Assembly (NCBI RefSeq): GCF_937770335.1
Contig: NZ_CALJHY010000016.1
Span: forward strand, 1 to 64,000
Source: an uncultured Glaciecola sp.
GTDB lineage: Bacteria; Pseudomonadota; Gammaproteobacteria; Enterobacterales; Alteromonadaceae
Direction: 5' to 3'
DNA: 64,000 nt
The position numbers and the translations under genes were made by a program. Within the stretch, counting starts at the first letter, position 1, and each line of letters opens with the position of its first letter. Shown here in pieces: positions 20,584 to 36,775 of this stretch. Under the pieces are notes generated by a model. It was not told the origin of the DNA. It was given only the letters and a program-made list of their open reading frames with translations, and did no database searches.

Positions 20584-20656
20584 TGGCGGAGAGAGAGGGA
20601 TTCGAACCCTCGTTAGGTTTAACCCTAAACACACTTTCCAGGCGTGCGCCTTCAGC
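20584..20656 (-). repeat. Distal attachment site: 73-bp copy of the tRNA-Ser 3' end
   Basis: Exactly identical to 36686-36758, running from the CCA end through the variable arm and anticodon stem to the D-arm side. It stops before the 5' acceptor strand, so it is not a functional tRNA. It marks the far end of the 16.1-kb island. Confidence 0.92.
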
Positions 20657-21509: not shown

Positions 21510-22169
21510 GTGAAAAACAAAATAAGAGTCCTAGTGCTTGATGACAACGAAGTCTTGGCCAAAAAATTTTCCAGTGTCGTTTCTCAATGGGAAGATGCGG
21601 TTCTTGTCGGTTGTTTTTTTACACTTAACGACGCTTTGGACTTTATCAAGGCAAATGATATTGACTTACTTATCACTGACATCAATCTGCCAGATGGTTC
21701 AGGTATTTCGGCAATAGAGACGATGACCTTGCTGCACCCGCAAGGACAGTCCATCGTGATTTCGGTTTTAAGTGAGAAAAACGTGGTGGTGGATGCCATA
21801 AAAGCTGGAGCGGTGGGATATTTGTCGAAGGATGACACAAACATGAATGTCCTCGCGTCGCTGAAGTCCGTAATGGCAGGGAACTCTCCAATTTCGGTTA
21901 ATATAGCCCGTCACATTCTCTCTATGCTCAAACCCAATGAAGTTGCAGTTCAGGCTCATGAACATTCAGATATTTCGCTTACCACACGGCAAACCGATGT
22001 GCTTTTTGCTATATCTAAAGGCTACACTTACCGTGAAATTGCTAAACTATATGGGATCTCTGACCAAACTGTTCCAGTTCATGTGCGTAACATCTATCGC
22101 AAGTTACAGGTTAAAAACCGTTCTGAGGCAATTTATGAAGCATCGCGACTGGGTCTTATTGGTTTATGA
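21510..22169 (+). CDS. NarL/LuxR-type response regulator
   Basis: 219 residues. The N-terminal receiver has acidic pair Asp11-Asp12 and predicted phospho-acceptor Asp57 (LLITDINLPDG). The C-terminal LuxR-type helix-turn-helix is SLTTRQTDVLFAISKGYTYREIAKLYGIS, ending KLQVKNRSEAIYEASRLGLI. The start is GTG. It overlaps the kinase by 4 bp (ATGA), so the two are translationally coupled partners. In the helix-turn-helix, TVPVHVRNIYRK departs slightly from the common TVKNHV form. Targets unknown, perhaps the secreted and secretin-like genes downstream. Confidence 0.9.
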   Translation: MKNKIRVLVLDDNEVLAKKFSSVVSQWEDAVLVGCFFTLNDALDFIKANDIDLLITDINLPDGSGISAIETMTLLHPQGQSIVISVLSEKNVVVDAIKAGAVGYLSKDDTNMNVLASLKSVMAGNSPISVNIARHILSMLKPNEVAVQAHEHSDISLTTRQTDVLFAISKGYTYREIAKLYGISDQTVPVHVRNIYRKLQVKNRSEAIYEASRLGLIGL

Positions 22170-23986
22170 GGTTCTTAACCGGACACGCTCGAGCTTTACT
22201 GGGGTTTATCTTTATATTATTAGTTGTTACCCGTGTAATAACGATACAGCAAACTGAAGTACTCCCGAAATACGAGCTTGCTTTAGTCGAAAGTAGTGGA
22301 AATGTATCTCAACTGCCGTTTAAATGGAGAGCTGAAAAAGGCCAACTTGGAACACAAAAATTTGTTTTTAACGTACAAAAAGCATCTTTATCTGCTGGTC
22401 AAAATGCTTTGTACATTCCTTACTACGAGCAGGTGCTTGAACTTTCTATTAATGGCAACAGCTTAGATTTATTTGTTGCTCTACCGGGTTTGTATGGCTC
22501 TATTGAACGTCTCTCGGGCTATGTGATTTTAGACAGTAACTGGTTTGATCAAGAACGAAATAAGCTTGAAATTGATGTGCAAACGGGGGGCTTTGTTTTT
22601 GCTAGCTTATCTAAAGTTTATTTGGGTCCTGCTGACGAACTAGCAAAAGCCTATCATTTACAACAATTTCTTCATAAAGACTTAAAAATCCTTTTGTTTG
22701 GAATGCAATTTCTACTGTTTCTTTTTTGTACATTGAGCTTTTACTGCCGTCCACAAGATCAAAGTTCAGCTTGGTTAGCCCTATTTTGCTTACTTTCGTG
22801 CATAATTGGGGCAGGTGTGTTTATTCCTCGAATACCCTCATTGTCGTATGTCTTGCCTTATCTTTTCCTGCTAACACCCATTATCGGTATCAGTATTTTT
22901 GCTTTTCGAAGATCTATTTTAAAGCAAGATATGCCGCGTTGGACAGGCGTCTTTATTGCATTTTATTTCCTTATTATTGGTTTCAGTATTTGGTTTGTTG
23001 ATATACCGATAAATGTTTTAGTCATTTTTGTTGCATTGCCTATTGCATGCATGTTCACAGTTTGGGTTATGTTGCTATACCTGCGTGATTTATGGCGCAC
23101 AGATAATCCTTACGACGCACTTATTTTTGTTTGCAGCATTATGGTCGTTCTTGCCGTTGTGCACGATGTGACGGCGAGGATATCGAGCTACAATTCGGAT
23201 TTGCTTTTCGCGCCAGCGGGACGTTCATTGTTGTTAGTGAGTTTGGCTTTCTTATTAGTAAAGAAGCAAACAAACACATCCAACACTTTGGACAACGCAT
23301 CGCGAGAAGCCTATCGCAAGTTGACTTTGCGAGAACAAGAACTTGGTCGTTTGTTCGAAGTGCAGCGTTTACAATCATTGAAAATAGTGAGAGAGCAAGA
23401 ACGTAAACGTATTACTGAGGACCTACATGATGGCGTAGCTGGGCATTTAACCACAATTTTGGCGCTGATTGAGATGGGGGATGCTGACAATGACAATTTG
23501 AGTAGCATCGCGAGTAGTGCTCTTACCGATCTGCGTATGGTGATTGAGACACTCTCATTGCCTGACGGCGAGCTTCGAAGTGCACTCGCGGCTTTCCGAG
23601 AGCGCTGTGTTGCGCCGCTGCACTATTTAGGTGTTGAGATAGAGTGGGATTTTATTGACTTACCTGAGATCGAGTATCTAGACTCTGAACAAGTGCTTTC
23701 AATCCTGCGCTTCATTCAGGAGGCCTTAACCAACTCGATGAGGCACGGTAAGGCTAAAAGAATAGAAATATATGCTAGCGTTACCGTTTCCGATATGGCC
23801 AAAATAAGTGTCATCAACAGTGGCGGTGAGGCCTTGGGTTGTTACAAAGAAGGCCATGGTATTCGGAATATGCGTAAACGTGCGGAGAGTCTACGAGGAC
23901 AGTTCAATATCGATGTTTTGAGCGACGGCGCGGTGGTTGAACTATTGTTTCCAGTGTCTGACGCAAACGCTACTGTAATGGTCTAA
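22166..23986 (+). CDS. NarX/DesK-type sensor histidine kinase with 7TM-DISM-like sensor
   Basis: 606 residues. A signal/anchor and an extracytoplasmic beta-rich domain (to about residue 165) precede seven hydrophobic spans (about 170-390), the layout of 7TMR-DISM sensors that bind carbohydrate-like ligands. A coiled coil then leads to the HisKA_3 dimerisation box ERKRITEDLHDGVAGHL with His421, and an HATPase domain (FIQEALTNSMRHGKA; GHGIRNMRKRAESLRG). Partner of the overlapping response regulator. The last codons and stop lie in the end of an IS3 remnant (23979 onward), so the native C-terminus may have been slightly different. Confidence 0.9.
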   Translation: MRFLTGHARALLGFIFILLVVTRVITIQQTEVLPKYELALVESSGNVSQLPFKWRAEKGQLGTQKFVFNVQKASLSAGQNALYIPYYEQVLELSINGNSLDLFVALPGLYGSIERLSGYVILDSNWFDQERNKLEIDVQTGGFVFASLSKVYLGPADELAKAYHLQQFLHKDLKILLFGMQFLLFLFCTLSFYCRPQDQSSAWLALFCLLSCIIGAGVFIPRIPSLSYVLPYLFLLTPIIGISIFAFRRSILKQDMPRWTGVFIAFYFLIIGFSIWFVDIPINVLVIFVALPIACMFTVWVMLLYLRDLWRTDNPYDALIFVCSIMVVLAVVHDVTARISSYNSDLLFAPAGRSLLLVSLAFLLVKKQTNTSNTLDNASREAYRKLTLREQELGRLFEVQRLQSLKIVREQERKRITEDLHDGVAGHLTTILALIEMGDADNDNLSSIASSALTDLRMVIETLSLPDGELRSALAAFRERCVAPLHYLGVEIEWDFIDLPEIEYLDSEQVLSILRFIQEALTNSMRHGKAKRIEIYASVTVSDMAKISVINSGGEALGCYKEGHGIRNMRKRAESLRGQFNIDVLSDGAVVELLFPVSDANATVMV

Positions 23987-24608
23987 TCCCTTTGGACACT
24001 TAGTTAGGCACTTTTTACATTTCTCAACTCATATTCTACTGGGGAAATGTTACCAAGGTTAGCCTGCGACGACTGTCATAAGAAGCGTCCATTTCGTTGT
24101 GAACCGTCTCTATAGCAGCTATTAGCCTTACTTGCTCTGCTTTAATTGGCTTCGCTTTGCTCCGAGCATAAAAAGTACTGCGTTTAACATGCAAGCACCT
24201 GCATATATCACTGACTTTGTATTCTGCCTTTTTCAGCTTCAGCGCGACTTGTTGCTGACATTCATTTCCATGGCGAAAAAAGCTGAAGCTTTTTTTAACA
24301 GATCATTATCACCTTTCAATTGCTTCACTTGGGCCTCAAACTCCAGAATACGGCGATGCTCATCTGTCATTGCTGTGGCTTAAGGTGTGATACCCATATT
24401 TTCTTGTTTATATTGTCTCACCCATCTTTGCAACGTCGATTGGTCTATATTCATGGCCTCAGCGGCATTTGTAACTTTATAGCCTTGCTTTATCACATGC
24501 TCCGTACATTCGCGCTTGAATTCGACGGTGAATAGTATTCTACCCATTTTAAACCTCGTTAGTTTTGGTTATATTACCTCTAACTAGGTGTCGAGGAAAA
24601 TTAGACCA
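23979..24608 (-). mobile_element. IS3-family remnant (630 bp) with terminal inverted repeats
   Basis: Ends TGGTCTAAT... at 23979 and its complement at 24600-24608 continue into partly matching inner ends (GACACTTAGTTAGG versus GACACCTAGTTAGAGG). Inside, on the minus strand, are a disrupted orfA and a short orfB start; most of orfB is gone. No target duplication is recognisable. Confidence 0.8.
24036..24547 (-). pseudogene. IS3-family transposase remnant (orfA plus start of orfB)
   Basis: From ATG at 24547 the frame reads EFKRECTEHVIKQGYKVTNA and STLQRWVRQYKQENMGITP, then hits an in-frame TAA. It resumes ATAMTDEHRRILEFEAQVKQ through DNDLLKKASAFFA to a stop. In the next frame orfB begins KAEYKVSDICRCLHVKRSTF then EMDASYDSRR and stops at 24036, before any DDE residue. 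Inactive. Confidence 0.8.
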
Positions 24609-24733
24609 TCACAAATCCTCTTAGAATGTGTCACAAGCCATTACCCTCGGAAATACCTAAAATAGGGTATATTCAATTTTTAGAATCAAGCTTAACCTTC
24701 CAACTCGTTAAATAAAAACATGAAAGAAGTATT

Positions 24734-25165
24734 ATGATTAAAATGCGATTCAAACTTAAAACGCTTGCAGTAGCTACTCTAGGCGCTGCCATATTGATGG
24801 CACCGACAGCACATGCAGCAACCAAATTGTGCGGGCTCTTAAATGAAGTAGGGTCAATCAGCAATGGCGATAGGGTCACATCCGGCGTGATTATGGAATA
24901 TAACGATGCGAACTTTACTAGTACTGTTTTTAGTAGCTGTAAGGAAATGCGCGACAAATTGATAAAAGACGGTGTCCCATATACAAGCCAAATAAATGGG
25001 GCTAATCCACCACAAACGCATCGCGTCCACATGCTCCAAAATGACAAAGCCAAGTCATCGTGTGAGCCTGATAAACTCATGAAACAAGACGACATATACC
25101 AAGTTCAATGGGCTCAACCAAAAGATGGAAGCGATACCTGTTGGAATGTAGTTCGGGTGAAGTAA
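24734..25165 (+). CDS. Secreted uncharacterised protein
   Basis: 143 residues with a clear Sec signal peptide (hydrophobic VATLGAAILMA, cleavage predicted after AHA near residue 28). The mature part has five cysteines (CGLLNE, SSCKEM, SSCEPD, TCWNVV), so probably disulfide-bonded outside the cytoplasm. No family recognised. It stands between the sensor kinase/IS remnant and a secretin-like lipoprotein gene, transcribed the same way, and could be a target of the two-component system or cargo of the lipoprotein. Confidence 0.65.
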   Translation: MIKMRFKLKTLAVATLGAAILMAPTAHAATKLCGLLNEVGSISNGDRVTSGVIMEYNDANFTSTVFSSCKEMRDKLIKDGVPYTSQINGANPPQTHRVHMLQNDKAKSSCEPDKLMKQDDIYQVQWAQPKDGSDTCWNVVRVK

Positions 25166-25451
25166 ATTATCTAACTCGTAAATCCAATTTTGCACATCTG
25201 TGATATGTAGTATTGCAATTTCGAGATGGATAACTTCCATCTCGCGTTCATTGGGAAGACGTTCCTTTATTTTTTTAGAGATTTATTTTCAATATAAATT
25301 GGTTCAAAGAAACCTGTCAGTTTGTATTTGAAAGCTTTATTTCTCTGCGATCTAGGTTGATTTGATGACAGAATTTCGTGGCATAAGGTTGGGCAGTCCA
25401 ATACAGAAAATATCATGGGCACTAGCTACTTTACGAGAAAAAAAGGGTGCA

Positions 25452-26924
25452 ATGAATATTCCTCTTGTGGTGCTAGTTTCATGCAGCATCATCGCAGGTT
25501 GTAGTTCGTTAAATACGTCTCAGCAAAACAACGATCGACTTCGTGATTTAGTCTATGGTTCCAATGACCAACCGCAAATTGACCCTCTTGATGGCGATGC
25601 CCATTTAAATAACGGACTAGCGTTACTCGCGAGATCAAACAAATCTCCAGGTGAGCTCTATTTTGCGCGCTCTGCATTCGAGCGTGCAGCTGTCTTAAAA
25701 ATTGATGACCCAAGACCACACTTTCTATCTGGCTATTCAAATTATCTTTTAGGCGACTATGGTGCAGCATACCAATCCTTTGTTTCCGCAGCAGTTTTGG
25801 ATAAATCAGCGGATGGCTGGTGGCTGGCGTCGCTTTCGGCGCTTCAAGGTCGTAATGAGTTGTTGGCACAAGCGCTGTATAACATGGGCCTCAAAGTATC
25901 ACACAGCAGTTCAGAGCTGTTGGGCACATTTATGGATAGAATCTACGGCGGTTCACAGGGGCTTGAAAATAGGGTAGACAGAGTAGCCGAAGTTTCATAT
26001 GACAACTTCAACTGCACTACTCCAGCAGATGATCCTTTGCACGGAGAAATCAGTTGCGAGGGCGATGCAAAAGTTGAGTTTTTTATTGTTCAGCGTTCCT
26101 CAGCTGCGGGTGCCAGTATTGGGCAAGATCTTGTATCAAAACTTTCTGTAGGCCTTGGTGGGAGCTTGTTAAGTTTTGATCGTAGCTATTTTAAAGATGA
26201 CTCAGGCAGCTCAACTGAAACTACAAAAAACAGGAATGTGTCGGTTGATTTACCAAGCATTAATTACGCTCTGAGTTTAGCCGCAGACAATGGTTCAGTT
26301 TCTTATGTAAACTCCATGCCTATCTTGAGCGCTCGTCTAGGCGTTGAGTCAAAAATATTTTCCGGTCAAAGTATTCAAGTATTAGCTACCGGCGATGGAA
26401 GTTCTGTGATTAATGAGGACGTAGGAACAACGGTTTCTTTTAACTTAGTTGGTTTTACAGAAAGTGAGGCTATCTTTGATGCCAATGTTGAGATGTCGGA
26501 CTTTTCTGCGCCTACATTCACTGGTAACTTCGCTCAACTTGGGACCAACACTACAAGTGTATTCGCATCGGCTAGCGTGCCATACAACAGAGCTTTTTTA
26601 CTTGGTTCACTTGAATATACATCACGAACAGATATTAACAGTGGCCAAACTGGAATTCGTGATATTCCTTTTGTAGGTAATTTATTTTCTAATCACCGCT
26701 CAGACCTCTCGCGAATGGAAACCGCCGTCTTAGCAATTATTCGCCCACCTTCGAAAATTGGGTATGATCAGGAATCTGTAGATTTGAAAGCCATGAAAAA
26801 GCTTGGGGTAATTACGCCTATCAAGGCAAGTCGCCGTCCTATCGCGCACCTAGCACCAACAATGGGCATGGTACTTTCTGAAATTGGTATTCTTTCAAAA
26901 GCGGAGCCGGCACTATACAAATGA
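25452..26924 (+). CDS. Lipoprotein with TPR-like repeats and secretin-type C-terminus
   Basis: The frame opens at 25362 but the ATG at 25452 gives a normal lipoprotein start, MNIPLVVLVSCSIIAGCSS, with lipobox IAGC. Residues about 35-170 are helical repeats (NNGLALLARSNKSPGELYFARSAFE, then YLLGDYGAAYQSFVSAAVL). The C-terminal 200 residues resemble the beta-rich secretin homology domain, with the family landmark GIRDIPFVGNLFS near the end, followed by AVLAIIRP. Secretins form outer-membrane rings in type II/III secretion and pili; no other secretion gene is nearby, so this is an orphan. About 490 residues. Confidence 0.7.
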   Translation: MNIPLVVLVSCSIIAGCSSLNTSQQNNDRLRDLVYGSNDQPQIDPLDGDAHLNNGLALLARSNKSPGELYFARSAFERAAVLKIDDPRPHFLSGYSNYLLGDYGAAYQSFVSAAVLDKSADGWWLASLSALQGRNELLAQALYNMGLKVSHSSSELLGTFMDRIYGGSQGLENRVDRVAEVSYDNFNCTTPADDPLHGEISCEGDAKVEFFIVQRSSAAGASIGQDLVSKLSVGLGGSLLSFDRSYFKDDSGSSTETTKNRNVSVDLPSINYALSLAADNGSVSYVNSMPILSARLGVESKIFSGQSIQVLATGDGSSVINEDVGTTVSFNLVGFTESEAIFDANVEMSDFSAPTFTGNFAQLGTNTTSVFASASVPYNRAFLLGSLEYTSRTDINSGQTGIRDIPFVGNLFSNHRSDLSRMETAVLAIIRPPSKIGYDQESVDLKAMKKLGVITPIKASRRPIAHLAPTMGMVLSEIGILSKAEPALYK

Positions 26925-31168: not shown

Positions 31169-31933
31169 TCATAATTTAGCCTGCATTAAGTCTGCCTTGA
31201 TGCTTCCTAGAGCGCCGAGTTCAAGGGTTACGCGCTGCAAAACACCATCTGTTCGAGCTAGATTGCTGAGGAGTTTGTTTTGGATGCTTTGATTTGTGCG
31301 AATGTTCTCGAGTAAACAAGCAGTATCAAACGTGGCATCGGTTAGCCTGGCTGCCTTTGGGTTTGCTTTTTCATCCAAAGGACTCTCAAGTAAGGGCGCT
31401 GGTATTAAGTGCCGTGGGAACGCATCGCTATATGTATCACCCAAATTCGCCAAGGCAGTAAGGGTAGTATTGAGTTGCCTGATCACAGTATGTTGATCCC
31501 TGTAGTTCAATAAAGCCGGCCGCACGGCTTGTCCTAATGGCGTGAATAAACTACTTTTAGATAGAACTTCATCCAACGAGCCAAGCGGTGCTACCGGATA
31601 AAATATCAGGTGTGACGACCACATCGCTCTGCACTGCGCATCCCTACTTATCTCTTGTTGAGGCTTATTCTGTATGATATCTACCGCCTCCACTAACGAT
31701 TGGCGATGTAGCTGTGTTTCTGATAGCCAATTAGTCTTCAATTTTACTGCCGCTTCAACATCGCTCTTAAGTTGCGACAATAATTGACGCTCTGCTGCTC
31801 GTGCTGTGTTCACAGTATTCCAGTTATTGACCTGTAAACCGATGAACACGCCGAAAACGACGATCAGCGTCTCAACAAGAACAGTGAACCAGTCTTGTTT
31901 TTTAATTGCTGTGGCTATACGACGCAGGATCAT
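31169..31933 (-). CDS. Membrane-anchored paralogue B (DUF6090-like)
   Basis: 254 residues. A short basic N-terminus (MILRRIATAIKKQDWFTV) is followed by one membrane helix (LVETLIVVFGVFIGLQVNNW) and a long helical periplasmic domain with heptad-like spacing. The helix ends in the motif QVNNWN typical of DUF6090-like proteins. It overlaps by 4 bp the 3' end of a related gene (31930-32718), so the two are co-translated and probably act together. Role unknown. Confidence 0.7.
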   Translation of the reverse strand: MILRRIATAIKKQDWFTVLVETLIVVFGVFIGLQVNNWNTVNTARAAERQLLSQLKSDVEAAVKLKTNWLSETQLHRQSLVEAVDIIQNKPQQEISRDAQCRAMWSSHLIFYPVAPLGSLDEVLSKSSLFTPLGQAVRPALLNYRDQHTVIRQLNTTLTALANLGDTYSDAFPRHLIPAPLLESPLDEKANPKAARLTDATFDTACLLENIRTNQSIQNKLLSNLARTDGVLQRVTLELGALGSIKADLMQAKL

Positions 31934-32718
31934 GGCTTTTCACTCGACTCAAAGCCATCTAAAAATGGGGTAGTAATAGGTTCTAGGCAGTCACCATGAT
32001 CTTCTAACCAAGTTGAATTGAAGCGTTCTACGCGACCATGCAGGTCTTCGCTTTGAGCGACTGTCAGCTTAAGATTAAGCGCTTCAATCTCTCGAACAAT
32101 ATTCCCGCTAATTTGTCCCATGGTAACACCATAATTATCAAATTCAGCCACAAGCTGGAATAATCGATTTCGTTCCACTCGGTTTAAAGTAGTCGTCTGG
32201 CTGAGTATCGCTAAACGCGATTCATTGGTAACGCTATAAATCCCAAATAACTCCAGGAGCTCTACATACGCGAAAATCTCATCAATTTGATTTCGCCTTG
32301 CCGCGTCCATACGATAGAAATTTCCTCGCGCCAGCTCAGCATCCCACACGCGATACTTCCAGAGGTTTGATGGCAGCGCCACGATATTTTCGAATGCGGA
32401 CCAGTCTTGGTCCCAAAGGCCATCAGATATAGCAATCCATTCATCACTGTCCCCCATCAAACGCTTGCCAACATCACGTAAGACGTTCAAGCGACATTGC
32501 TTGACTGCAACTTGACGCTTAGCGTTATGATAATTACCGATCAGATCTTCAGTTAAAAAGATTTCGGCTCGGGCAAAGGCAGCTTTTTCTTGTTGCGCGT
32601 CGCTCCAACTCGTAATCTGAAAGGCAAGAAGAATACCCACAACAACGATCACAAAATCTAGCGTGACAGCGAACCAGTTTTGTTCTTTTATGTGTTTAGT
32701 TATTGAGCGCAGTAGCAT
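31930..32718 (-). CDS. Membrane-anchored paralogue A (DUF6090-like)
   Basis: 262 residues with the same layout as its neighbour: basic start MLLRSITKHIKEQNWFAV, one membrane helix LDFVIVVVGILLAFQITSW, then a helical domain of about 220 residues. The N-terminal 40 residues of the two proteins align closely (KxQNWF/KxQDWF), the rest hardly, so this looks like an old duplication with divergence, or two subunits of one complex. First gene of the pair; the start ATG lies 55 bp from the nearest A+T-rich promoter-like sequence. Confidence 0.7.
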   Translation of the reverse strand: MLLRSITKHIKEQNWFAVTLDFVIVVVGILLAFQITSWSDAQQEKAAFARAEIFLTEDLIGNYHNAKRQVAVKQCRLNVLRDVGKRLMGDSDEWIAISDGLWDQDWSAFENIVALPSNLWKYRVWDAELARGNFYRMDAARRNQIDEIFAYVELLELFGIYSVTNESRLAILSQTTTLNRVERNRLFQLVAEFDNYGVTMGQISGNIVREIEALNLKLTVAQSEDLHGRVERFNSTWLEDHGDCLEPITTPFLDGFESSEKP

Positions 32719-33638: not shown

Positions 33639-33827
33639 TTATATTTGGAGACTGCTGACTATCAAAGCAAGCTTCGTAAGCGCTTCACGTTTCTCATCCA
33701 AATAATCATACCGATCATAAATCCCCTCAACACCTTTTAACTTTTGATTCAGACACCTTTCAGCAACATGGCCTGGTGTTTCTAGTTTTGCTAACAGTGC
33801 AGGAAAGGTTCTAGGAAAAATATTCAA
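33639..33827 (-). pseudogene. Integrase C-terminal fragment
   Basis: 62 residues: RTFPALLAKLETPGHVAERC then NQKLKGVEGIYDRYDY and EKREALTKLA. This is the end of a P4-type tyrosine recombinase, with the HVxERxLNH-like box and the tyrosine region (GIYDRYDY), but without the rest of the catalytic domain. It overlaps the end of the polymerase-like gene by 4 bp, so it may still be translated. It implies another integrase once stood here. Confidence 0.7.
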
Positions 33828-35347
33828 TCAGATATTCTCACCTCAAACGCTGTCTGAGCCATAATTGCTTTTTCAAACACTTCGAAAGCTAGTTCTTGCC
33901 TACTGTAAATAGCGTCATGCACTGGTATACCGTCATCTACGATGGATAGCATGGCATCTCGTATTTGCTTCTCAAAATATGTCCAGATAAAGAAGAACAC
34001 GCTGGCCTTGTCTCGAGCCTCTTGTGAAGAGTTTTCCTTTTCTATGTTCTGCCAATCTTGATCCTCTGGAAAGCTATTTTTAGATTGCTCAGTAGCAGAT
34101 TTACGTAGTTTAGGTTCATATATATCAATAACAGCGATGACCTCTCTTCGGAGTTGGTCTGATTGCTCAGAAAACTCTTTTAATTCAGTGCTTTTACCAA
34201 CTTGTTTTTGACTGCCATTAGCATAGGCTGTTAGTAGTCGTTTAACCTCATCAATGGACAAATCTAAATCATCCGCAATCTTTTGTCTCAACTTGTTCTT
34301 ATATTCAGGGTCAAAACCGTAATTGAATATCACCGAAAAAGCGGCTTGCAAATCGCAGAAATCATGATATTTAGAATGCGGATACTGATATAGAATATTA
34401 AAACAGATTATTTGTAAACCACCGCTGATATCATAGTTATGATAACCAAGTGCCTTACGCTCACTGCTCCGTAATCTAGAGAAGATGTTATAGGTACGAC
34501 CTTTCTCAGGGTCAACACTTGCTAGGTTTGTTAATGGGACTGCAATACAACTAGGGGGTGCTGGGTGTGCGATACTCATAACTTGAATAAAGGAACGCAT
34601 TGACAGTTTAGCTAGGTCTTGTACTTCTATAAGAAAGTGGTCTTGAGCCATAAAGGTATCAACTTTACCAAGCTTTACACTTTTGCCGGTACACAATGAT
34701 TCCGCTATATGTACAGGGAAATATGTAAGCGCACTCATAGACCGATTATATTCATCTAGTAGTTCTATTGTTAAGTCTACAATCCGCTTATTTGGTAGTT
34801 CGGCTTTATTTGTTAGCTTCCAAGTCTTCGAATAAGCGTCACTTCTATAATTAATAGACCTAACAAACAAAGAGGCAACCAAAATGCTTTTATTTAGCTG
34901 GGTCAACAAATACCTAGCTGCACCATTTTGACTATGAATAGGTGTTCCATTAGTTCCTTTTCTAGACTCGACCTGTGTGACTAGCTTCATGTATTCAAGC
35001 CCGACCCTTATGATCCTTTTAGGTGTTTTTATATTGTTGATAAAGTCGGTATCTTTTCTCAGCACATATCCCGCTACAGCACCCATGATCTTTAAGAAAT
35101 GTTGTTTATCCGAACCCGAGCTTAAAGCGAGGTCTACATAGGTTTTAACTAATTTACTGTCCACAAAATCAAGGTCTGTTTTAGACGGCACTGGAGCTGT
35201 TTTTAAATACCCTTTAATATCATCTTTTAGTTTGTTGATAGTTTGCCTTGATAAGCCCGAAAGCTTCGCTAACTCTGTTTGGGGAGTACTTTCTGCAACA
35301 TGCCTAGACTTTAGCACTCTCAGTACTTTTTCAAGTTCTTGGTTCAT
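33824..35347 (-). CDS. Putative miniature single-subunit (T7-like) polymerase with N-terminal HTH
   Basis: 507 residues, not a known annotated family to me. Residues 21-45 form a helix-turn-helix (TELAKLSGLSRQTINKLKDD). The C-terminal half carries, in order, the marks of the T7 RNA polymerase/family A palm: GRTY (residues 283-286, like the conserved GRVY), motif A-like YDISGGLQ with Asp306, motif B-like KRLLTAYANGSQKQVG (369-384; T7 has KRSVMTLAYGSKEFG) and motif C-like IPVHDAI with His477-Asp478 (T7 LIHDSF). It is much shorter than T7 RNAP (883), lacking room for the promoter-recognition parts. It lies 43 bp after the integrase gene stop-to-start, same strand. Polymerase activity is inference; structural homology needs a profile search. 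Confidence 0.6.
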   Translation of the reverse strand: MNQELEKVLRVLKSRHVAESTPQTELAKLSGLSRQTINKLKDDIKGYLKTAPVPSKTDLDFVDSKLVKTYVDLALSSGSDKQHFLKIMGAVAGYVLRKDTDFINNIKTPKRIIRVGLEYMKLVTQVESRKGTNGTPIHSQNGAARYLLTQLNKSILVASLFVRSINYRSDAYSKTWKLTNKAELPNKRIVDLTIELLDEYNRSMSALTYFPVHIAESLCTGKSVKLGKVDTFMAQDHFLIEVQDLAKLSMRSFIQVMSIAHPAPPSCIAVPLTNLASVDPEKGRTYNIFSRLRSSERKALGYHNYDISGGLQIICFNILYQYPHSKYHDFCDLQAAFSVIFNYGFDPEYKNKLRQKIADDLDLSIDEVKRLLTAYANGSQKQVGKSTELKEFSEQSDQLRREVIAVIDIYEPKLRKSATEQSKNSFPEDQDWQNIEKENSSQEARDKASVFFFIWTYFEKQIRDAMLSIVDDGIPVHDAIYSRQELAFEVFEKAIMAQTAFEVRISD

Positions 35348-35390: not shown

Positions 35391-36527
35391 CTACTGTAAA
35401 CATTTTAGCTGATCAAGGTATTTCGACCATCTATACATCAACTCTCGTCGCTCTTCAAGCCTCATAGAACGATCATACGCAGCTTTTACCTTGTTACCCT
35501 CAATATGCCCTAACTGAAGCTCTATTAGATCACCATCAAGCCTACAGTGTTCTCTAGCTAGGGTAGAGAAACTAGAACGAAAGCCGTGGAACACATGGAT
35601 GTCTTTATGAATGCCAAGTGACCTCAATGCTTTGTTTAATGTGTTTTCACTCAAGGGTGATTGTGCTTTGGTTCCGGTAAACAGATAGACGCTATCAGAT
35701 GCTTCAATAGCTAGTTCTAAAAGCTTAATTAAGGGTTTTGTTAATGGGATCCAGTGCTCTCGCCCCATCTTGTCTTTAGGGATGATCCAAAGTTTTCTGT
35801 TGAAGTCGATATGATCCACCTTAGCAATCCTAATCGATTCACTGCGCAGGAATACATATGGTGCAACTTGAAGACAAAGCTTAACAGAAGCCATGAGATT
35901 CTCTGCATTGTCTATAGTTCTGAGAAGTTGAGTAAACTCAGCTTCTTCTATAATTGCCGGCATGTTTCGCACCTGAGGCTTCTTTGTACAACCTTGTAAT
36001 GGTTGGGATGGGTTGCTCTCACAGTAAAGATTCTGTACACCGTATTTGAAAATCTGACTGAGGATGTTCTGAACTCTTCGAGCTAGTTCAAGATGTCCCT
36101 TGGCTTCAATCTGTTTAAGAATAGGTAAAATATCTTTGGGTTTGATGTGTGAAATGGTCATGCTGCCTAGCTTTGGCAAAAGGTAGTTTTCAATCCTACG
36201 GCTAACTAAGTGCTTGTTTTTAAAACTAGTATAGCCTTTGTATTCAAGCCATTCAGAGGCTGTGTCTATAAATAGGACACTCTTGTATTCCACTACCATT
36301 GCAAGTTCATCACGAAGCTCCCGTGCCTTTTCAATAGATGTATTGGGATATGAACCTAGCGTTTTCATTGTCCATGAACCCGCATAGTTTTTATATCGAT
36401 ATCGCCATATCCTAGAGCCTGATTTAGTCAGCTCAATGTACAAACCGTCAGAGTCTAAATAACGTTCAATTTTAAGAGGTATTTTGAGGCGTTGTATTTT
36501 GGTATTGGTTAACATATGTCTACTCAT
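35391..36527 (-). CDS. P4-type tyrosine recombinase (island integrase)
   Basis: 378 residues. N-terminal DUF4102-like arm-binding domain (LDSDGLYIELTKSGSRIWRYRYKN), a core-binding SAM-like domain near residues 98-190, and the catalytic domain with Arg in FLRSESIRIAKVDHID, HGFRSSFSTLAREH, LGHIEGN and the nucleophile in AAYDRS (Tyr about 358). It lies 158 bp from the tRNA-Ser 3' end, the normal place for the integrase of a tRNA-targeted island. Intact, so excision could still occur. Two starts are possible: ATG 36527 or 36515. Confidence 0.93.
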   Translation of the reverse strand: MSRHMLTNTKIQRLKIPLKIERYLDSDGLYIELTKSGSRIWRYRYKNYAGSWTMKTLGSYPNTSIEKARELRDELAMVVEYKSVLFIDTASEWLEYKGYTSFKNKHLVSRRIENYLLPKLGSMTISHIKPKDILPILKQIEAKGHLELARRVQNILSQIFKYGVQNLYCESNPSQPLQGCTKKPQVRNMPAIIEEAEFTQLLRTIDNAENLMASVKLCLQVAPYVFLRSESIRIAKVDHIDFNRKLWIIPKDKMGREHWIPLTKPLIKLLELAIEASDSVYLFTGTKAQSPLSENTLNKALRSLGIHKDIHVFHGFRSSFSTLAREHCRLDGDLIELQLGHIEGNKVKAAYDRSMRLEERRELMYRWSKYLDQLKCLQ

Positions 36528-36685: not shown

Positions 36686-36775
36686 TGGCGGAGAGAGAGG
36701 GATTCGAACCCTCGTTAGGTTTAACCCTAAACACACTTTCCAGGCGTGCGCCTTCAGCCACTCAGCCACCTCTCC
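36686..36775 (-). tRNA. tRNA-Ser (anticodon GGA)
   Basis: 90 nt with a 7-bp acceptor stem (GGAGAGG with TCTCTCC), long variable arm, T-loop GGTTCGAATCC, encoded CCA. The anticodon loop CTGGAAA gives GGA for UCC/UCU codons. Its last 73 nt serve as the attachment site of the island. Confidence 0.96.

Follow-up and report, generated by a model that had tools for sequence, protein, structure and literature searches.

The locus raises the question of what a 507-aa protein with polymerase-like motifs does directly behind the integrase of a genomic island. We analysed it in the window, i.e., the whole stretch of 64,000 nucleotides from an uncultured Glaciecola sp. (contig NZ_CALJHY010000016.1, positions 1 to 64,000). 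An initial annotation, made from the letters of the sequence, had read the product as a compact T7-like polymerase domain with its own helix-turn-helix (HTH) next to an island integrase, and had named primase, terminal transferase and element-specific RNA polymerase as options. We consider it probable that this product, encoded behind the tyrosine integrase of a small tRNA-Ser element, is a primase-polymerase of the superfamily-A/TV-Pol fold in a divergent and minimal form. The features of the window that bear on this reading are the following.

33824-35347, minus strand: gene of the 507-aa TV-Pol-like protein, intact, with ATG start; helical N-terminal part, weak HTH and C-terminal superfamily-A-like palm
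33827-34660, minus strand: modelled polymerase domain, residues 230-507 (best of five models: mean pLDDT 76.6, pTM 0.67)
35228-35281, minus strand: weak HTH match, residues 23-40 (HTH_3, E 0.0067, below the curated cut-off)
34496-34498, minus strand: codon of Arg284 in GRxY, candidate for the conserved template-contacting Arg described in PMC2579912; invariant in 6/6 copies
34430-34432, minus strand: codon of Asp306, motif A, candidate metal ligand; invariant in 6/6
34241-34243, minus strand: codon of Lys369, candidate fingers Lys; invariant in 6/6, with the Arg at -4 absent in 5/6
33914-33916, minus strand: codon of Asp478, motif C, candidate metal ligand; invariant in 6/6, with model pLDDT <50 at this place
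33639-33839, minus strand: remnant immediately following the polymerase-like gene and resembling a second integrase at its C-terminal end (label by eye)
35391-36527, minus strand: tyrosine integrase of 378 aa, separated by 43 nt from the polymerase-like gene downstream (Pfam; alignment A8)
36686-36775, minus strand: intact tRNA-Ser(GGA), the integration target
36686-36758, plus strand: att repeat on the tRNA side, 73 bp, perfect direct repeat
20584-20656, plus strand: att repeat on the distal side, 73 bp, perfect direct repeat

The motifs were located exactly as the initial annotation had given them, in the order GRTY (residues 283-286), YDISGGLQ (305-312), KRLLTAYANGSQKQVG (369-384) and IPVHDAI (474-480), with the aspartates at D306 and D478. 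Motifs are named here as in Pol I; in T7 RNA polymerase, motif B holds K631, R632 and Y639. The place of Tyr639 is occupied by Asn377 with Tyr375 two residues earlier, again as annotated, and both residues are invariant in the six copies now known (the window and five relatives), together with G283, R284, Y286, D306, Q312, K369, H477 and D478. G378 is kept in all five copies that are readable at that position, while T285, S308, G309, G310, L311, R370 and S379 vary, position 370 reading R, A, A, E, K and E across the six. The background in residues 236-507 is 34% invariant positions, and in residues 1-120 it is 7-8%. Two copies contain DLH, which resembles the DIH of Pol I. Four residues before K369 stand I, I, I, R, L and L (window, L009, L010, L011, L015 and L017, respectively), and RxxxK thus occurs only in L011; the fingers Asp, D332, is present in 5/6 copies and replaced by Glu in the frameshifted L017. 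We also confirmed the adjoining integrase, whose arm-binding, central and catalytic Pfam domains all score above their cut-offs. The HTH claimed for the protein itself was recovered as a match, but a weak one (16.9 bits against a Pfam cut-off of 23).

The five relatives came from a search of an 84,980-species collection with two narrow patterns, which would miss more distant members; it returned 34 stretches, five of them encoding relatives. These belong to Opacimonas viscosa (70% identity to the window protein), Glaciecola sp. HTCC2999 (64%), Thalassotalea loyana (41%) and two gammaproteobacterial MAGs (46% and 42%), and the MAG4 copy (L017) is frameshifted. In genome sets that overlap one another, a match was found in two of 98 relatives (the window's own genome and G038), and 395 family genomes gave six matches at E ≤ 0.001, of which four were kept (own, G038, G104 and G240) and two judged to be chance, one of these after inspection. 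The 369 class genomes gave three matches at E ≤ 0.01 (one kept, the own genome) and the 394 order genomes four (two kept); within the genus of G104 a match was present in 2/10 genomes and within that of G038 in 1/3. The plasmids and phages searched held no relative, a lone phage match at E 7 being taken as chance, nor did the viral contigs, either in four scans with the protein or its alignment or when scanned with the integrase alignment. Among the weak matches attributed to chance were those in G115 and G147 (L006 and L007), the latter in a stop-containing frame opposite an ORF that looks kinase-like (L047) and the former uninspected, and those within a PpiD-like ORF of G1115 (L023), a membrane-protein-like ORF of G777 (L018) and an EF-G-like ORF of G547 (L019), all these ORFs being labelled by eye. 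The match in G1049 (L024) was taken as chance uninspected, and a viral contig with DGIPVHDA (L049) proved to contain an unrelated ORF.

At the present depth, sequence tests neither support nor refute a palm, because T7 RNA polymerase and Pol I mostly fail in them against each other as well. Pfam returned weak HTH matches near residues 19-40 and one chance-level match, leaving the C-terminal part without recognition; PHROGs and NCBIfam gave zero matches to the 507-aa protein, and a PDB search by sequence nothing credible. With profile HMMs built from nine T7-like RNA polymerases (alignment A3) and eight Pol I-type enzymes (alignment A5), both used without a positive control, the family fell among shuffled sequences, at ranks 52-910 of 1154 for the former (7/7 family rows listed) and 49-648 of 1136 for the latter (5/7 listed). 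By hhalign, the family reached at most about 1% probability against either group, and the control with true relatives, T7-like RNA polymerases against Pol I, reached 1.3%. When ordered T7 blocks were placed, 2, 2, 22, 8 and 12 of 60 shuffles reached the scores of the window, L009, L010, L011 and L015, respectively; with Pol I blocks the numbers were 0, 8, 7, 7 and 0, and the two zeros lend no support since motif C is the only one that the best placements of the Pol I blocks put at the proposed site (4/5). The block controls behaved similarly poorly, 1/8 Pol I-type enzymes beating its 20 shuffles with T7 blocks and 1/8 T7-like enzymes with Pol I blocks. T7-style motif patterns occurred in 227/20000 (loose), 5/20000 (middle) and 0/20000 (strict) shuffles, which is suggestive only, as the patterns were composed after the protein had been inspected and match 8, 7 and 5 of nine T7-like enzymes, respectively. 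PF00940 had no match in the own genome, a result of little weight because the control likewise matched nowhere.

The fold was more informative for residues 230-507, for which the initial annotation had proposed a fold search. A first model of the full-length protein (four sequences) had a pLDDT of 54.6, with the palm largely below 50 and residues 1-100 helical (block means 68-89), and no polymerase was found among its best 50 of 117 PDB rows. A second run on residues 230-507 (seven rows) gave a best model with pLDDT 76.6 and pTM 0.67; the other four had values of 72.1, 63.3, 53.4 and 49.6, i.e., only two of five lay above 70. Residues 473-479 around HD478 are below 50 in this model, so that active-site geometry and metal site are not visible in it, and the place of R284 has no strand, though the Arg is invariant in 6/6 copies and stands in the expected order. 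Helices lie upstream in both models and may or may not correspond to the two-helix thumb module of TV-Pols. Searched against 350,542 PDB chains, the second model found Bst DNA polymerase I at ranks 1, 2, 4, 7 and 20 and T7 DNA polymerase at rank 41, matches that are individually non-significant (best E 0.22, probability 0.41, TM 0.29, rmsd 9 Å), with unrelated proteins filling the remaining rows of the first twenty. Pol I thus came first, weakly, and T7 RNA polymerase was absent from the best 50 of 163 rows. Among the predicted viral proteins of BFVD, six matches reached probability 1.00 (E 6.3e-4 to 6.5e-2, one at E ≤ 0.001; query TM 0.49-0.58, rmsd 5.5-9.3 Å, alignments of 287-335 columns including gaps for 278 residues), and at the seventh, a PolA, the probability dropped to 0.13. 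One of the six is named by function, as ‘Putative DNA helicase/primase/polymerase [Qinghai Lake virophage]’; another is an uncharacterised phage protein and four are without a name. Overall, the model suggests a superfamily-A/TV-Pol fold for residues 230-507.

The genomic setting was compared among the copies. In the window, the 16.1-kb island is bounded by a perfect 73-bp repeat that corresponds to the 3' end of tRNA-Ser(GGA); these bounds, at 20584-20656 and 36686-36758, lie beyond the coordinates covered by the initial annotation. An integrase is located upstream on the same strand in 5/6 copies, at distances of 43, 38, 49, 54 and 32 nt, and the integrases of the relatives are 69-82% identical to that of the window; in L017, no integrase adjoins the gene among the ORFs listed. 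A genome survey for co-occurrence with tyrosine recombinases, likewise proposed in the initial annotation, bore out the linkage, as integrase matches at E ≤ 1e-60 occurred in 4/345 family genomes (five places) and the same four genomes carry the polymerase-like gene among the 395. Complete tRNA-Ser genes adjoin the window, Opacimonas, Thalassotalea and JN10.006 copies (GGA, GGA, TGA and TGA, respectively), and in L017 a tRNA-Ser(TGA) lies about 6 kb away. The cleanest copy is that of Thalassotalea (L011), where the two units of a 90-nt repeat (96% identity) enclose 5.3 kb containing the integrase, the polymerase-like gene and two other ORFs of at least 100 aa. Judged from these sequences, this is a small element that inserts into tRNA-Ser genes and carries the polymerase-like gene directly behind its integrase.

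HTCC2999 contains traces of further events. Its intact copy lacks a complete tRNA and lies between two tRNA-Ser-like 3' pieces (L010:5720 and 11186) that resemble two different tRNA-Ser genes, one piece being identical by eye to the 73 bp of the window; given these flanks, the copy has probably left the site where it first inserted, or else forms part of an old array. The fifth integrase place, also in HTCC2999, is truncated and is found next to a gene that by eye is NadA-like, an arrangement shared with the window, with the polymerase-like gene not adjacent. At L012:7792-8097 in the same strain, an ORF that is otherwise unrelated closes with the final 44 codons of the polymerase-like gene, and behind it lies an integrase-like remnant similar to that of the window. 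Taken together, the integrase linkage, the att repeats, the truncated integrase and the 44-codon fragment indicate that the integrase and the polymerase-like gene move as a pair and have repeatedly inserted and decayed. The island of the window is probably composite, since the remnant resembling a second integrase lies directly behind the polymerase-like gene.

These observations can be compared with the TV-Pols described by Iyer, Abhiman and Aravind in 2008 (PMC2579912). These proteins of 400-600 aa comprise the superfamily-A catalytic core in its minimal form, occur in virophages and mobile elements and were predicted from their context to prime and polymerise. The same description includes the Sputnik polymerase, a subset in which the N-terminal domain is all-helical and a lambda-type integrase is among the gene neighbours, and a figure legend that lists gammaproteobacteria such as Alteromonas and HTCC2143. 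The 507-aa protein resembles TV-Pols as described there in size, in having no nuclease fusion and in sharing the architecture of the integrase-linked subset on mobile islands; R284 is a candidate for the absolutely conserved Arg of the beta-hairpin that precedes their palm. It shares with them a predicted superfamily-A palm with two conserved Asp (D306 and D478, 6/6), the fingers Asp (D332, 5/6) and a mobile element with one of the partners integrase, resolvase, transposase or D5 helicase, here the integrase (5/6; att repeats in the window and L011). It differs in that the fingers RxxxK is absent in 5/6 copies, and no match was obtained at the sequence level, TV-Pols being compared by description only. 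We therefore find TV-Pol-like the best label, rather than proven TV-Pol membership, because RxxxK occurs in only 1/6 copies, despite conservation of the two catalytic Asp and the one in the fingers. The named virophage match (A0A0R5K514 in BFVD; probability 1.00, TM 0.55) appears by analogy to be itself a TV-Pol; it is similar in predicted fold but has 839 aa and is also named a helicase, whereas the 507-aa protein is without a fused helicase.

The broader part of the initial annotation, a palm of the superfamily of T7 RNA polymerase and Pol I on an integrase-bearing island, agrees with the fold matches; its specific assignment to T7-like RNA polymerases does not, as Pol I leads and T7 RNA polymerase is absent from the best 50 of 163 PDB rows. 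Among its three options, primase has become the best one, the sole functionally named one of the six viral matches being a virophage helicase/primase/polymerase. Terminal transferase, and likewise an anti-phage role, were considered and set aside, the evidence pointing neither way. The statement that no description was known holds for the six-copy family, for which none was found in the open PMC library, but not for its kind, which was described in 2008 as TV-Pol in PMC2579912.

Our best guess, by analogy, is that the protein works in the same mode as TV-Pols. The integrase would excise the element, as suggested by the att repeats and by catalytic residues recognised by eye in alignment A8. 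The N-terminal part, helical and bearing the HTH, might then bind DNA of the element, perhaps at an origin, and the C-terminal palm, with two metal ions on D306 and D478, would lay down and extend a primer on exposed single strand. In this way the excised circle could be copied before reintegration or onward passage.

Two other groups of element-borne polymerases provide partial parallels. CcPol, counted among the TV-Pols, is reported to require its partner MP for making primers (Rice 2023, PMC10061031), and CcPol-MP lacks the N-terminal domain of many TV-Pols according to the same source. CcPol-MP and PolA-SSB, as described in PMC10061031 (see also PMC7581432), are similar to the present case in that a superfamily-A polymerase domain serves as the primase of an integrative element beside a recombinase. 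They differ in occurring in SCC and other elements of Bacillota, where a helicase and a partner with an OB fold accompany them and the recombinase of SCC is of the serine type. The present element belongs to another phylum and neither a helicase nor an OB-fold partner was recognised in it, OB folds not being visible by sequence. Pipolins (PMC7385651) likewise are integrative elements with their own DNA polymerase, piPolB, but this is of the B family, not the A family; piPolB can make primers (PMC10061031).

An alternative explanation, which we consider unlikely, is that a palm-derived protein has ceased to polymerise and acts as an HTH regulator or recombination-directionality factor, with the fold kept as a scaffold. 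The missing RxxxK in 5/6 copies, the position directly behind the integrase and the low model confidence at motif C would be consistent with this, and RRM-core partners that are possibly vestigial and inactive are mentioned in PMC10061031. A scaffold, however, would need none of the residues that are kept, namely both metal-candidate Asp, the Arg of GR and Lys369 in 6/6 copies and the fingers Asp in 5/6, and these stand against the 7-8% of invariant positions in residues 1-120.

An element-specific single-subunit RNA polymerase of the T7 type, transcribing the element or making an RNA primer at one promoter, appears improbable to us. GRxY, DxS..GLQ and K(8)GS do resemble T7-like enzymes (A3), none of the 20000 shuffles contained the strict pattern, and T7-type enzymes and Pol I form one superfamily. 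The four-motif order is shared with T7 RNA polymerase, but the spacing of motif A is one residue short, Asn replaces Tyr639 in 6/6 copies and Arg632 has no conserved counterpart, though that of Lys631 is kept. T7 RNA polymerase was also absent from the best 50 of 163 PDB fold rows, which Pol I headed, and a length of 507 aa against 883 aa would leave little room for the N-terminal and specificity parts of the T7 enzyme. Finally, it seems improbable that the protein is of an unrelated kind with chance resemblance, as the silent sequence profiles and the poor first model might suggest, because two fold libraries place polymerases first or among the first and D306, D478, R284, K369 and HD, named in the initial annotation without any relatives, turned out to be invariant.

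Within the preferred reading of a TV-Pol-like primase-polymerase, a bolder version is conceivable, although we regard it as doubtful. The protein might be a one-protein replicon starter, in which the HTH finds the origin and a palm with altered fingers (no RxxxK, Asn for Tyr639) primes without a helicase or SSB partner, using rNTPs, dNTPs or both. The 5.3-kb element of integrase and polymerase would then be among the smallest self-copying elements of its kind. The family provides named strains in which the att sites are clear, Thalassotalea loyana LMG 22536 and Opacimonas viscosa LMIT007 (tRNA-Ser(GGA) site), and with them a test case of 5.3 kb. It would test whether priming by a superfamily-A palm is possible in the absence of a helicase or SSB partner, and how much drift the fingers motif tolerates. 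For integrase-linked TV-Pols, the 2008 prediction was made from context (PMC2579912), and priming has been reported for CcPol-MP (PMC10061031). The present case was missed by the sequence libraries used and was suggested only via fold search.

The remaining content of the island was examined with Pfam. Nine island proteins of the window were scanned, and they include a response regulator and a histidine kinase, a secretin-like protein and a cytochrome c, while four had no match at E ≤ 0.01; a tenth protein, outside the repeat, also had no Pfam match. No helicase was recognised among the nine by Pfam, and inspection by eye of the listed ORFs of the 5.3-kb element revealed none either. The cargo at 21510-26924 consists of a LuxR-type response regulator, a histidine kinase and the secretin-like protein. 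At 31169-32718, two adjacent proteins of ~255 aa have N-termini that are alike by eye, one of them with a weak DUF6090 match below the cut-off, and they are possibly membrane-anchored paralogues. Proteins of 242-244 aa that are alike by eye, without credible Pfam match, are encoded downstream of the polymerase-like gene in the opposite direction at L009:10266-10994 and L011:7594-8328. No such protein is located behind the gene in the window; it is a possible second core gene of the element.
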